DNA of 30,318 nucleotides. Origin: a virus. Of this stretch, positions 3,355 to 22,591 are shown piece after piece. The stretch covers positions 1 to 30,318 of the IMG/VR virus record IMGVR_UViG_3300037111_000093. One strand, given 5' to 3'. Each line of letters begins with the position of its first letter. The stretch's first letter is position 1. Both the position numbers and the translations under genes were made by a program. A model generated the notes under the pieces. The model was not told the origin of the DNA. It searched no databases and worked only from the letters and a program-made list of their open reading frames with translations.

Positions 3355-3546
3355 ATGAGTAATAATTTCTATCCTCACAAAACAATAAAGGGTAAAAAAA
3401 ATACTGTTCATCGACATGTCATGGAAGATTATTTAGGAAGATCATTAGAATATGATGAGCATGTATATCACATCAATGGCATTTCTACGGATAATAGTAT
3501 TGAAAACTTAATCGTCATTAAAAAGAAATATAGAATACCAAGATGA
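3355..3546 (+). CDS. Mini HNH-fold protein
   Basis: This encodes a 63-residue protein with a TGGAAA site before the ATG. It carries the core of the HNH_3-type family: a basic N-terminus, HRHVMEDYLGR, then VYHINGISTDN and SIENLIVI. In full-length homing enzymes the second part reads V(H/Y)HxNGxxxDNxxxNL. So the beta-beta-alpha metal site (two His and one Asn) is largely present, with Tyr in place of the first His. No separate DNA-binding domain is visible. It may be a minimal nuclease, a remnant of a homing endonuclease, or a DNA-binding accessory. It overlaps the RtcB start by ATGA, so the two are translationally coupled. Confidence 0.65.
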   Translation: MSNNFYPHKTIKGKKNTVHRHVMEDYLGRSLEYDEHVYHINGISTDNSIENLIVIKKKYRIPR

Positions 3547-4733
3547 AAATGGAAATAATTGATGGAATTCCTGTATGGGGGGAAGCACTTCCTGAAGTTG
3601 TAGCGCAAATGAAGGCGGTTATGAATTATGAAAAAGCACCAGATTACTGTGCCCTTATGGCCGATCATCATTTGGGTTATTCTGTTCCTGTTGGAGGTGT
3701 ATTGGCATATGAAAAAAGCATCAATGTTAATGGTGTTGGTTTTGATATCGCTTGTGGCAATAAAGCTGTGCTGCTTGATTGTGATGCTACTGAAGTTAAA
3801 AATAACATCTACAGGACAATGAATGAAATACAAAAACATATCTCCTTTGGAGTGGGTAGAACGAATAACGAAAAAGTGGAACATAGTCTCTTCGATGACA
3901 ATGTCTGGAACGAATTGGAAATTCTCAGAAATCTTAAAGATAAAGCAATGCTTCAACTTGGTACAATCGGAAGGGGTAATCACTACGTGGATATCTTTAC
4001 GGATGAGCTTAATAGGATTTGGGTTGGCGTTCATTTTGGGAGCCGTGGCCTTGGGCATAGTATATGCACTCATTTCATAAAAGCAGCAGGGGGAAAAGAT
4101 GGAGTACACGCAGAGCCGGTCGTTCTTGATGAAAATTCAGACCTCGGACAACAATACATTAAATGCATGGAACTCGCTGGTAAATATGCTTACGCTGGCA
4201 GAGATTGGGTGTGCAGACGTGTAACCTGCATCTTACGAGGAAACATCTTGGACGAGTGTCACAATCACCATAACTTTGCATGGCGAGAACGACATTTTGA
4301 TAAAGATTTGTGGGTCATTAGAAAAGGTGCTACACCTGCCTTCCCTGGCCAAAAAGGTTTTGTTGGGGGTTCTATGGGAGATTTTTCCTTCATACTTGAG
4401 GGAGTCTCCTCGATTTCTAGTTCACAGGCTCTTAATTCGACAATTCATGGAGCAGGCCGTCTTCTTGGAAGAACTCAAGCCAAAGGAAAAACCTGTAGAA
4501 AAACAGGAAAGCAATTAACTGAGGGTCTTGTAAAAAAAGAAGATCATGAAATGTATATGAAAACATTTAGACCGGAGGTTAGAGGAGGAGAACTAGATGA
4601 AAGTCCCCTAGCTTATAAAAGGATTGAAGAAATACTCAAAGCGCATTCATCAACTGTAAAAGTGTTGCACACACTTTCGCCGATAGGGGTCTGTATGGCT
4701 GATGACAGGATTTTTGATCCATACAGAGATTGA
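3543..4733 (+). CDS. rtcB: RtcB-family RNA ligase (GTP-dependent, 3'-phosphate/2',3'-cyclic phosphate to 5'-OH)
   Basis: This encodes a 396-residue protein, close to the usual family length of about 400. The metal and guanylate site motifs are all present in order: GVGFDIACGNKA (D68, C71), GRGNHYVD (H147), VHFGSRGLGH (H164), ECHNHHNFA (H240-H243), RKGATPAFPGQ (260-270), GGSMGDFSFI, and STIHGAGR with the histidine that is guanylylated (H302). RtcB joins RNA ends left by tRNA splicing endonucleases or by stress and anticodon nucleases. The intact catalytic set suggests an active enzyme. A phage copy could repair host-cleaved tRNA, but this is inference. The gene is coupled to the mini-HNH gene, not to RtcA or RtcR genes. 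Confidence 0.93.
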   Translation: MKMEIIDGIPVWGEALPEVVAQMKAVMNYEKAPDYCALMADHHLGYSVPVGGVLAYEKSINVNGVGFDIACGNKAVLLDCDATEVKNNIYRTMNEIQKHISFGVGRTNNEKVEHSLFDDNVWNELEILRNLKDKAMLQLGTIGRGNHYVDIFTDELNRIWVGVHFGSRGLGHSICTHFIKAAGGKDGVHAEPVVLDENSDLGQQYIKCMELAGKYAYAGRDWVCRRVTCILRGNILDECHNHHNFAWRERHFDKDLWVIRKGATPAFPGQKGFVGGSMGDFSFILEGVSSISSSQALNSTIHGAGRLLGRTQAKGKTCRKTGKQLTEGLVKKEDHEMYMKTFRPEVRGGELDESPLAYKRIEEILKAHSSTVKVLHTLSPIGVCMADDRIFDPYRD

Positions 4734-19192: not shown

Positions 19193-19750
19193 ATGGAATT
19201 TAAATCACAATTCGATCCTACACGTAAAACTGCTGGATCAATTTATCGAGACGCTCAGATTCACGGGGAAAGAGGTGTTGTCATTGGAGATGTCAATCAT
19301 GAAATCAAAAAAGATTTAGTAAAAGATATCAATGAGGCAATACAAAAAGGCAGGTGTCATCCTGATTTTCAATCAAAGCCATTTTATTTGGCTTTCTATG
19401 AAAAATACGACTTAACCATGAAGAGAAGTTTAGTTCGAATACCAAAGATAACAAAATATAGACCATATCCTGAACAGGATACCATGGTTTTTCATGTTTT
19501 TCCAAACGATGATGTATATTTTTGTTGGGAATTACCACATAGATCACACATGATAAATATAATAAATAGCGCTGATCTTTATCCCCCTGAGCAAGTTCAA
19601 ATGATACGCAGATGGGAAAATATTCAATTAGAATATTTTGGATTTATGAAAGATGAAAATGATAACTGGATAGAAAATCCCGTTTATAAAGGAGATATTC
19701 TTCTGGGTAGTAAAAGTGGAGAAAAGGAAGTGAAAATCTTGATGAGTTAA
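19193..19750 (+). CDS. Unknown cargo protein, 185 residues
   Basis: This encodes a 185-residue soluble protein, second in the plus-strand island. A GGGAGG stretch lies about 14 bases before the ATG, longer than the ideal spacing. It has a charged N-terminus (GSIYRDAQIHGERGVV, NHEIKKDLVKDINEAIQ) and an aromatic core (YLAFYEKYD, MVFHVFPNDDVYFCWELPHR) with HRSHMINIINSADLYPPEQ. No domain is recognised. The His/Cys/Trp-rich core could form a catalytic or metal site, but nothing shows this. The tRNA-like gene begins 1 base after its stop on the other strand. Confidence 0.6.
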   Translation: MEFKSQFDPTRKTAGSIYRDAQIHGERGVVIGDVNHEIKKDLVKDINEAIQKGRCHPDFQSKPFYLAFYEKYDLTMKRSLVRIPKITKYRPYPEQDTMVFHVFPNDDVYFCWELPHRSHMINIINSADLYPPEQVQMIRRWENIQLEYFGFMKDENDNWIENPVYKGDILLGSKSGEKEVKILMS

Positions 19751-19751
19751 A

Positions 19752-19846
19752 AGACACGTGAAGGACTTGCACCTTCGACCTTTTACGAAAGGATCCCACA
19801 CCCAGCGACCAATCCGTAAACGCTCTACTCTCTGAGCTAACATGCC
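19752..19846 (-). tRNA. tRNA-like gene with oversized (29-nt) anticodon loop
   Basis: Reading the minus strand from 19846: acceptor GGCATGT pairs with ACGTGTC over all 7 bp (two G-U pairs); U8-A9; D-stem GCTC/GAGC with loop AGAGAGTA; a stem TTTAC/GTAAA; variable loop AGGTC; T-arm GAAGG, TGCAAGT, CCTTC; discriminator U, no encoded CCA. The loop closed by TTTAC/GTAAA is 29 nt instead of 7, and an inner GGATT/GATCC helix can form in it. Trimming the loop to 7 nt from its two ends never places U at position 33. The D-loop lacks the GG pair, and T55 is G. So the fold is tRNA-like, but it is probably degenerate, interrupted or repurposed. No amino acid can be assigned. Confidence 0.5.
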
Positions 19847-20047
19847 ATAAGAGAGGCCGTCACCCCTCCGAATCCTCATTCCTACTTAACTATGCAAGTG
19901 GTCTGAATATAGCATGTGGAGTTATTTTTTAATAGTTTTTTTTGGAACAAAAGACATTTGAAGAAGTGGAAGCGGATTGCCTATAGTGCGAACGACTTTT
20001 TTTGTTTCTTTTTTCTTCTTCACGATATCTCTTATGAAATGAAAAGA

Positions 20048-20077
20048 AGGCTGTACTTTTTGATGAAGTAACAGCCT
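20048..20077 (-). terminator. Stem-loop downstream of the small basic gene
   Basis: AGGCTGT (20048-20054) pairs with ACAGCCT (20071-20077), and the stem continues inward as ACTT/AAGT with one bulged base, about 11 bp. On the minus-strand RNA it is followed by a TCTTTTC tract, so it could end transcripts from the portal block. The T-run is weak. The stretch 19847-20078 contains only this hairpin and no credible gene. Confidence 0.4.
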
Positions 20078-20078
20078 C

Positions 20079-20097
20079 ATGTAAAACCGCTTTACAT
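20079..20097. repeat. 19-bp intercistronic palindrome, copy 2
   Basis: The sequence is ATGTAAAACCGCTTTACAT, differing from the perfect dyad only at one position. On the minus-strand RNA that position makes a G-U pair, so the hairpin is kept there. It abuts the stop codon of the gene at 20098-20295. Confidence 0.7.
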
Positions 20098-20295
20098 CTA
20101 GCGTTTTGGCTCATGCTTTGTAAGCGTCATACCGGCTCTTCTTTCATCAAGATGCCTCATATCCTCACGAGTTCTTTCAGGTTCCCTTGGGAACGCTAAG
20201 GAGTATTGCTCATCCATGCTGATAGGGCCTCTTTGGATTTCTATTCCACCCGGTCTATCTTTTGAAGAAGGAGATGATGATGAAGATTTAGCCAT
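20098..20295 (-). CDS. Small serine- and charge-rich protein, unknown function
   Basis: This encodes a 65-residue protein: MAKSSSSSPSSKDRPGG, then many Arg, Glu and Pro residues (FPREPERTREDMRHLDERR). It is predicted disordered, with no membrane segment. Its ATG overlaps the stop of the upstream gene by one base (TAATG), and an AGGGAGA site lies about 9 bases upstream. It is in the portal transcript and is probably a head accessory peptide. The function is unknown. Confidence 0.55.
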   Translation of the reverse strand: MAKSSSSSPSSKDRPGGIEIQRGPISMDEQYSLAFPREPERTREDMRHLDERRAGMTLTKHEPKR

Positions 20296-20626: not shown

Positions 20627-22591
20627 TCATGCAACATTTTGATTATTTGCAACTACATCTTTTTCAGGATTTGCAGCCGGACTTAGTTCATTAAGTATTT
20701 GAACTTGTGTCATAAGGTGATCAAGATCCATACCCTTTAATTCCTTAAGTGCTTTCACTACATTTAATAAACTTGCTGTATCTTCTTGATGTGCGCGTCG
20801 AAGTTTATCTTGTGCAACCGCTTGATCGGTTCCTATTTTAGCAATCCTTTCTTTTGCTAAACCTTCCTGACTATGAGCATAGGCAACTTTAGTTAAGTTA
20901 TTAACTTCAAGTTCTTTCATTTTCAACTCTTCCATTTTCTGCGCTTGCTCTTGCATAGCTTTTTGTTTAGACATGACTTTCTCAATAATTCTCTCTTTAT
21001 TTTGCAGGGTCATGCATTCAAGGATTTCATCAGGAGGAATAAGATCAGGAAATAGACTTTGAGCATGTAGAATTTGAGCTAGTTCTAGTTGCTGTTGCGT
21101 CTCTGTAAGTGGCGCTTGAACCACTTTACAACCATATTTAAAGAATATTTTGCTATCAAATTCAGATGTAGGTTCTTCACCAATAACTTGTCTAACTTTT
21201 CCATAGGTCCAGTTCTTTTGTATGTACTCTATTTCGATTTCAGCGCATAGCCTTTGTGATTCATCTGCTTGATCAAAAAGTCGTTGTAGATTTCTAGCAG
21301 TAGATGCCTGTCTCATCATCGTGATGATACCTGCTTTGTCATCTATATCCATGCCCATGGCTTTTGGATCAATACCGGAAATATTATAGAAAATTCCCTG
21401 CAACATTTCTTCCATTTGAAGCATTACGGGAGATGGGGGAACAATTGGCATTACCTCAACATCTGACATTTGAAAATCTGGATCAATTGAAAGCACTCTA
21501 CCATGACCTGAGTTTAAAGCGTCATCAGGTGTTACTAAAGCACCTTTTTTGATCTTTAGACCTTGTTGTTGCGCATCCAAAATTTCTAAATTTGATACCT
21601 TCAAACGGTTTAAGAGGTTTTGTGGATCCCTAAGATCCCTCATAACCCCCCTGAACTTATACGCATAATAGGGGGTATCCGCTGTAAAGTATGCTAGCGT
21701 AGGCACCACCGGGTATTTATCAATGGAATATGGGTTAGGTTCATCTACAAGCACTCTATCATTAAGAATAATGCTTCTGCGTACAGTAGGAACCTGTTTT
21801 TTAATAGTTGTTAATTTTCCTTTGAAAGCTTGTAGTATCTCTTTTAGCTGCTCTTCAGTTCCTTGAAATTCTTGACATTCTTCAGTTTTTTTATCCACGA
21901 GAAATTTGGCTTCGCGACTAGTAAGATACCAATACTCGTCAAAGGCGATGAGGTTTGGGAATTGGATTTGATAGACTTCGGGCATGTAAAAGAATTTGTC
22001 ATCTCTGTAAGTACCTTTTGGGAGTGAAAGTATTGCATCTGCATGTTCAGGATACATTAGAGCGGCTTCTTGCATATCTAGAAAGGTCCTTACCCACCAG
22101 AATCTTGCATCAGACATATCATGTTTGCGAAAGTATGGGTCAAATAAACATGATTTCATGTCGATATAGCGCCACCGAGGATCTGGACTTATTGGATCTT
22201 TTGTACTGTCCCCATACATATACATAAAGCCCAATCCTTGAACAACAGCGCCTAATTCAAAGGCATCGCTAAATGTTTGATGAAAGCCTGATTTATGATT
22301 GTGATATAGGCATTTCGTTAGTTGATCGGCAGTTTTTTGCATACCATTGTGTATTGGAATAACAGCTGAACTTTTTCTTGTTTGTCTTTGTTGTCCGCTT
22401 ATTGCTTGAGCTATGGGATTCATGATGTTGAAGTTCCATATCTTCCTGCGATAAGTTGCCACACCAGGAAAAATTAGACCCCAAACTTCTTGGTCGCCAA
22501 TAGTGAAGCGCTGATCTACGTCACTTTGATACCATTGAGTTTGTAATATGTTGATGCTGTCGGAGTAATTTTTTTCCATGCTTTGACGCAA
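20627..22591 (-). CDS. Portal protein (P22-like)
   Basis: This encodes a 654-residue protein from TTG 22591; ATG 22579 (MEKNYSD) is the first standard start. The large length, the N-terminal helices with TQWYQSDVDQRFTIGDQEVWG, the central stem region near 300-420 (GVMRDLRDPQNLLNRLKVSN, then FYNISGIDPKAMG) and the long glutamine-rich C-terminal coiled coil (after about residue 530) fit podovirus portal proteins. These form the 12-fold ring for DNA packaging. The same frame is open upstream to 22660, and a strong AGGAGG site lies at 22648-22653, but only an ATT at 22640-22642 follows it at the right spacing. The true start is uncertain. Confidence 0.82.
   Translation of the reverse strand: MRQSMEKNYSDSINILQTQWYQSDVDQRFTIGDQEVWGLIFPGVATYRRKIWNFNIMNPIAQAISGQQRQTRKSSAVIPIHNGMQKTADQLTKCLYHNHKSGFHQTFSDAFELGAVVQGLGFMYMYGDSTKDPISPDPRWRYIDMKSCLFDPYFRKHDMSDARFWWVRTFLDMQEAALMYPEHADAILSLPKGTYRDDKFFYMPEVYQIQFPNLIAFDEYWYLTSREAKFLVDKKTEECQEFQGTEEQLKEILQAFKGKLTTIKKQVPTVRRSIILNDRVLVDEPNPYSIDKYPVVPTLAYFTADTPYYAYKFRGVMRDLRDPQNLLNRLKVSNLEILDAQQQGLKIKKGALVTPDDALNSGHGRVLSIDPDFQMSDVEVMPIVPPSPVMLQMEEMLQGIFYNISGIDPKAMGMDIDDKAGIITMMRQASTARNLQRLFDQADESQRLCAEIEIEYIQKNWTYGKVRQVIGEEPTSEFDSKIFFKYGCKVVQAPLTETQQQLELAQILHAQSLFPDLIPPDEILECMTLQNKERIIEKVMSKQKAMQEQAQKMEELKMKELEVNNLTKVAYAHSQEGLAKERIAKIGTDQAVAQDKLRRAHQEDTASLLNVVKALKELKGMDLDHLMTQVQILNELSPAANPEKDVVANNQNVA

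Follow-up and report, generated by a model that had tools for sequence, protein, structure and literature searches.

A conserved phage tRNA-like RNA with a rebuilt anticodon arm, predicted 3' of the portal operon of P22-like phages

The usual explanations for tRNA genes in phages are codon supply and the replacement of tRNAs that have been cut by host defences. Phage-encoded tRNAs were also proposed to evade anticodon nucleases via changes in the anticodon loop (PMC10264068). According to a review of non-canonical tRNAs (PMC7609411), the anticodon stem has 5 bp as a rule, with 6 bp in tRNA-Pyl and in one mitochondrial tRNA-Ser. In the engineered tRNA scaffold, the acceptor, T and D arms are retained for host enzymes and the anticodon stem-loop is the insertion region, in which a hairpin is kept (PMC3753655).

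The IMG/VR record analysed here, 30.3 kb long and from a P22-like phage, is referred to in its whole length as the window; the genes of its portal, terminase and major head proteins lie on the minus strand. The portal gene is followed by short genes and then, on the same strand, by a tRNA-like element (Table 1). Like the engineered scaffold (PMC3753655), this element has the top half of a tRNA and, where the anticodon arm would be, a hairpin; by analogy of build, it corresponds in nature to the laboratory construct; however, the scaffold is man-made whereas the phage element is natural, conserved and diversifying. It shares altered anticodon arms with the phage tRNAs of PMC10264068, and an arms race fits both, but those tRNAs are treated as decoding molecules with point changes in the loop, whereas here the whole decoding arm is rebuilt. 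As in the tRNA-like domain of tmRNA, a tRNA upper half is found without a normal anticodon arm, the difference being that the D-arm is retained, that no mRNA-like region was found and that there is no tmRNA match. Compared to canonical tRNAs (RF00005), the cloverleaf, the contacts between T-loop and D-loop and a score above the gathering threshold are common to both, but the element has an anticodon arm of 39 nt, no U33 and no encoded CCA.

Table 1 Coordinates of the tRNA-like element, of its neighbours in the window and of two related subtypes in other contigs.
Feature	Position	Strand	Remarks
tRNA-like RNA, whole element with rebuilt anticodon arm	19752..19846	-	read 19846->19752
Acceptor stem, 5' half GGCAUGU	19840..19846	-	helix pairs in 99.4% of family cells
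D-arm GCUC-AGAGAGUA-GAGC (A18, G19)	19822..19837	-	100% of family cells paired
Basal anticodon stem, 5' half UUUAC	19816..19820	-	helix extends to 19813 (8 bp)
29-nt apical part in place of 7-nt anticodon loop	19787..19815	-	top of 8-bp stem and GGUC/GAUC helix
Basal anticodon stem, 3' half GUAAA	19782..19786	-	pairs with UUUAC
Variable loop AGGUC	19777..19781	-	
T-arm GAAGG-UGCAAGU-CCUUC (G55)	19760..19776	-	
Acceptor stem, 3' half ACGUGUC	19753..19759	-	pairs with GGCAUGU
Terminator-like hairpin GGAGGGGU-GACG-GCCUCUCU	19850..19869	-	ends 3 nt before the 5' end of the element
Portal protein (P22-like)	20627..22591	-	Pfam PF16510, E 3.6e-46; PHROG 156
Convergent gene, 185 aa, no assigned function	19193..19750	+	conserved beyond the element in relatives
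RtcB RNA ligase	3543..4733	+	Pfam PF01139, E 5.9e-67
GATCC-hairpin-GGGGAGAGGTC subtype	L094 7519-7603; L157 5639; L175 3291; L246; L019 13276; L021 12766	L094 -	
D-arm subtype, long, with TCGTACG hairpin	L040 12590; L001 2927; L042 3330; L022 4172		

The presence of a tRNA fold was examined with covariance models. Run with permissive cmscan filters, the Rfam tRNA model matched the element end to end, over its positions 1-71, at E 5.7e-8 and 43.5 bits, the gathering threshold being 29, but the window member escaped both ARAGORN and the default-filter Rfam search. No tmRNA was reported at the element by ARAGORN or by cmscan under either filter setting. The original prediction had described a tRNA-like gene with a 7-bp acceptor, a D-arm, a 5-bp stem, an AGGTC variable loop, a T-arm and a 29-nt loop, located opposite the end of a cargo island. 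All these parts were confirmed on the minus strand, and two bases separate the 3' end of the element from the stop codon of the convergent plus-strand gene, in agreement with the location given. The acceptor GGCAUGU/ACGUGUC includes two G-U wobbles, and base 73 is U. The inner GGATT/GATCC helix that had been proposed was not used in the minimum-energy fold, in which the anticodon stem has 8 bp (UUUACGGA/UUCGUAAA) with GGUC/GAUC stacked above it. The element may thus be drawn either with a 29-nt loop or with an 8-bp stem and a 23-nt apex, U33 being absent in both cases, and the hairpin alone folds better than 98.7% of its shuffles.

A search with the portal protein of the window gave 76 IMG/VR loci with relatives of this protein, on metagenomic contigs that are partly fragmentary. 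In about 26 of them the element occupies the same position, immediately 3' of the portal operon and between the short post-portal genes and the first cargo or convergent gene; most of the portal-homologous loci that cover this position are without it. Members were assigned to the family by a strict pattern scan and by R1, a covariance model of 82 positions. On 1.18 Mb of shuffled sequence, the strict scan produced 2 hits on one strand; an earlier, looser tRNA scan, with its thousands of chance hits, was not used further. The window element, itself in the R1 training set, scored 79.6 bits, and members outside this set scored 61-85 bits, with E-values of about 1e-10 for L008 and L014 and about 1e-16 for L115. 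One of these loci, L032, is a 100% match to the window. The same build was also found in phages with little protein similarity (L086, L087, L094, L095 and L106), where the constancy of the acceptor GGCATGT reflects ascertainment since it is fixed by the search pattern. Most family members encode U73 and no CCA; an ACCA 3' end is encoded by L028 and by two unrelated expanded-arm members, L147 and L245. One member (L101 6025-6127, minus strand) carries an extra insert within its D-loop.

The closest match of the portal among phage records is about 24% identical, and there is no close cultured relative. The phage records match no more than a short tRNA arm of the element, and the one E. coli phage match that was opened lies inside a predicted protein gene. 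The portal was found in four contigs of genomes labelled Verrucomicrobia, Myxococcales, Deltaproteobacteria and Acidobacteria; these labels disagree and therefore no host is claimed. The family contigs that occur in these four differently labelled genomes are L115-L118, of which at least some look misbinned.

Conservation was then assessed on the pairing of the helices. In the alignment A1, built on sequence only, 93.1% of the cells pair, 12 of the 21 pairs have two-sided changes and 58 cells are compensatory; none of 500 shuffles reached these values, and sliding the structure left at most 60% of the cells paired. Among the helices, variability is highest in the basal anticodon stem, yet all five of its pairs have double changes, with several pair types. 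In the same way, the elbow contact 19-56, G-C in most members, is A-U in L071, a tertiary compensatory change. Over 210 phage pairs, the median divergence of the top half (acceptor, D and T arms) was 0.18 and that of the fourfold-degenerate portal sites 0.65; the anticodon arm diverged by 0.47 compared to 0.556 for shuffled arms, two values from gapped alignments that are comparable to each other and not to the fourfold value. The anticodon arms vary in length and sequence, and shuffled versions of them fold less well (mean z of the real arms -2.26, 28 members). From these rates, the covariation and the folding of the arms, we infer that the top half is held and that the arm is held as a hairpin, barely as a sequence. 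The element is thus very probably a conserved phage tRNA-like RNA with a rebuilt anticodon arm, as judged from its comparative pattern.

These data bear directly on the idea of a degenerate tRNA, which had been put forward for this locus. A decaying tRNA or a remnant of an integration site, having no function as RNA, would fit the missing standard anticodon and the variable cargo that, in many relatives, separates the element from the convergent gene. However, a decayed tRNA would lose its arms and its compensatory pairs, and the locus contradicts this: the top half diverges far less than fourfold sites, the paired arms persist and covary in the approximately 26 portal-homologous loci, compensatory changes occur in all helices, and the build recurs in unrelated phages. 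The odd D-loop and G55 (T55G), which had been taken for signs of decay, turned out to be features conserved throughout the family and found also in phage tRNAs with ordinary arms. We consider decay to be hardly credible.

The element probably has a role other than codon translation, and it is very unlikely that the window member decodes. The whole explanation that we favour, with a confidence slightly below even, is a conserved, scaffold-like tRNA-like RNA that does not decode and would serve in trans as a decoy or a resistant mimic. With the acceptor, D and T arms kept, the RNA would be folded and matured by the host tRNA machinery, by RNase P at the 5' end and by RNase Z and CCA addition at the 3' end. 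The longer, fast-changing hairpin in place of the anticodon arm would bring about, for the window member, the loss of decoding. The RNA could then act in trans on a host factor that handles or attacks tRNAs, either as a decoy or as a nuclease-resistant mimic; the likeliest such factor would be a defence nuclease, and the arm may diversify because this factor probes it. Defence nucleases are the best candidates since only this arm diversifies and since loop changes have been proposed for phage tRNAs (PMC10264068). A decoy had also been among the original proposals for this locus. No motif was shared across the anticodon arms of the family, which makes a single decoy target hard to name. The U73 without CCA of most members and the absence of the element from most of the loci that cover its position also speak against the favoured explanation. 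The decoy role specifically is less likely than not. An antisense role within the phage was considered and rejected: the longest own-locus matches of 17 arms were generally no better than those of shuffled arms, and the two best arms, L115 and L019, were equalled by 16 and 20 of 200 shuffles, respectively.

The main rival, which we regard as unlikely, is that the element belongs to the portal mRNA as a 3'-end or processing element, the tRNA shape being cut by RNase P and RNase Z and thereby defining and protecting transcript ends. The tRNA top half, which is the conserved part, is the part that RNase P and RNase Z read, and the anticodon arm would vary freely since these enzymes ignore it. Such a role agrees with the location of the element, on the strand of the portal operon and immediately 3' of it, and in L002, L012, L017, L028 and L030 the element begins approximately 10-20 nt past the last reading frame with no terminator between. 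However, a terminator-like hairpin stands upstream of the element in L004, L008, L009, L010, L014, L015, L052, L069, L115 and others, so that the element is not needed for ending the mRNA, and in L006 and L018 a terminator alone occupies its position. The hairpin of the window lacks a clear U tract, and several relatives have clear intrinsic terminators in the same place. In addition, covariation maintains the hairpin form of the arm, which exceeds what mRNA processing requires. A conserved terminator-like element with two inner hairpins (GAGTGGCCCCGCAAGGGATGTGATATGCGATACAACCCGCACCACTC) was observed in six contigs (L007 12438, L008 3080, L011 4903, L014 10638, L052 2024 and L115 10441), directly upstream of the tRNA-like gene in 4 of the 6 cases; that of L115 had no Rfam match.

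Two further explanations would keep the element in translation. It might be a decoding tRNA with a long anticodon stem, in which the tip of the hairpin would serve as the anticodon loop, with UAU or CAU in several relatives. Between 7 and 10 unbroken pairs were counted in 12 of the 25 arms listed, and on stems of 7-10 bp some relatives have tips that resemble UAU, CAU or GAA anticodon loops: 7-nt tips with U33 and sensible anticodons are GTTATGA (L008, L025), ATTATAA (L115) and CTGAAAA (L071), to which the GTCATGA/GTTATGA cores of L014/L028 can be added, also with U33 and sensible anticodons. The phage tRNAs with ordinary arms that share the elbow are also mostly CAT. However, stems of 7-10 bp displace the anticodon, the apex of the window has no U33, and the anticodon differs or is missing between relatives, which leaves decoding improbable overall, though conceivable for the relatives with such tips. 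Even less probable is a tRNA whose short intron would be removed by some unknown nuclease, with the phage RtcB ligase rejoining the ends, close to the short insert removed by an unknown route that had also been envisaged. RtcB is encoded by the same phage, its relatives are present in several family members, and 10 of the 50 records searched carry it, six of which also hold an element of the same class. What disfavours splicing is that a 7-nt loop with U33 cannot be obtained by any single excision, either from the window's loop or from those of 18 of the 25 members; besides, members with stems of 8-10 bp and a 7-nt tip leave no intron. The co-occurrence of RtcB with the element is weak, and its role as a splicing partner is doubtful: among the near-complete family records (at least 35 kb), too few for a decision, the element is present in 3 of 7 with RtcB and in 2 of 15 without, and none of the 12 unrelated expanded-arm records, several of them short, carries RtcB. 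A self-splicing intron does not fit either because 29 nt are far too short and because no intron family was obtained with cmscan of 19500-20100. The RtcB of L094 is 66% identical to that of the window, and the L094 contig has three tRNA or tRNA-like genes of the same build.

Beyond this family, the A18/G55 elbow was tried as a diagnostic of the class and rejected, as it is shared by the phage tRNAs with ordinary arms and mostly CAT anticodons. When the unique viral-contig hits for the G55-type T-arm and the related loci are counted together, about 59 have normal arms (22-24 nt from D-stem to T-stem) and about 30-35 have expanded arms. In L019, L021, L094, L157, L175 and L246, GATCC-hairpin-GGGGAGAGGTC replaces the anticodon arm under several different acceptors. 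A second subtype at the same locus has an expanded D-arm (L001/L042, L022 and L040); two of these D-arm-expanded elements pass the Rfam tRNA threshold, and L040 has a normal-looking anticodon loop, TTTTAAA, that would read UAA. The open-access literature that was searched contained no account of phage tRNA-like RNAs whose anticodon arm is expanded. Tentatively, and with less confidence than for the favoured explanation, the anticodon-arm expansions, the conserved GATCC...GGGGAGAGGTC subtype and the related D-arm-expanded subtype could together make up an undescribed and widespread class of phage noncoding RNA, in which a natural tRNA scaffold shows hypervariable hairpins in trans in a conflict between phage and host over tRNAs. 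A conserved family that keeps the tRNA body without the standard reading loop would be evidence for non-decoding roles of phage tRNAs. The family supplies natural examples of the engineered tRNA scaffold, and its approximately 28 sequences offer a one-frame test set for RNase P, CCA addition, anticodon nucleases and RtcB.

Finally, long inserts break the matches of the major head protein in L003 (13261-15974), L009, L017, L028 and others; these phages also carry HNH endonuclease genes, which suggests that the inserts are introns or homing elements.
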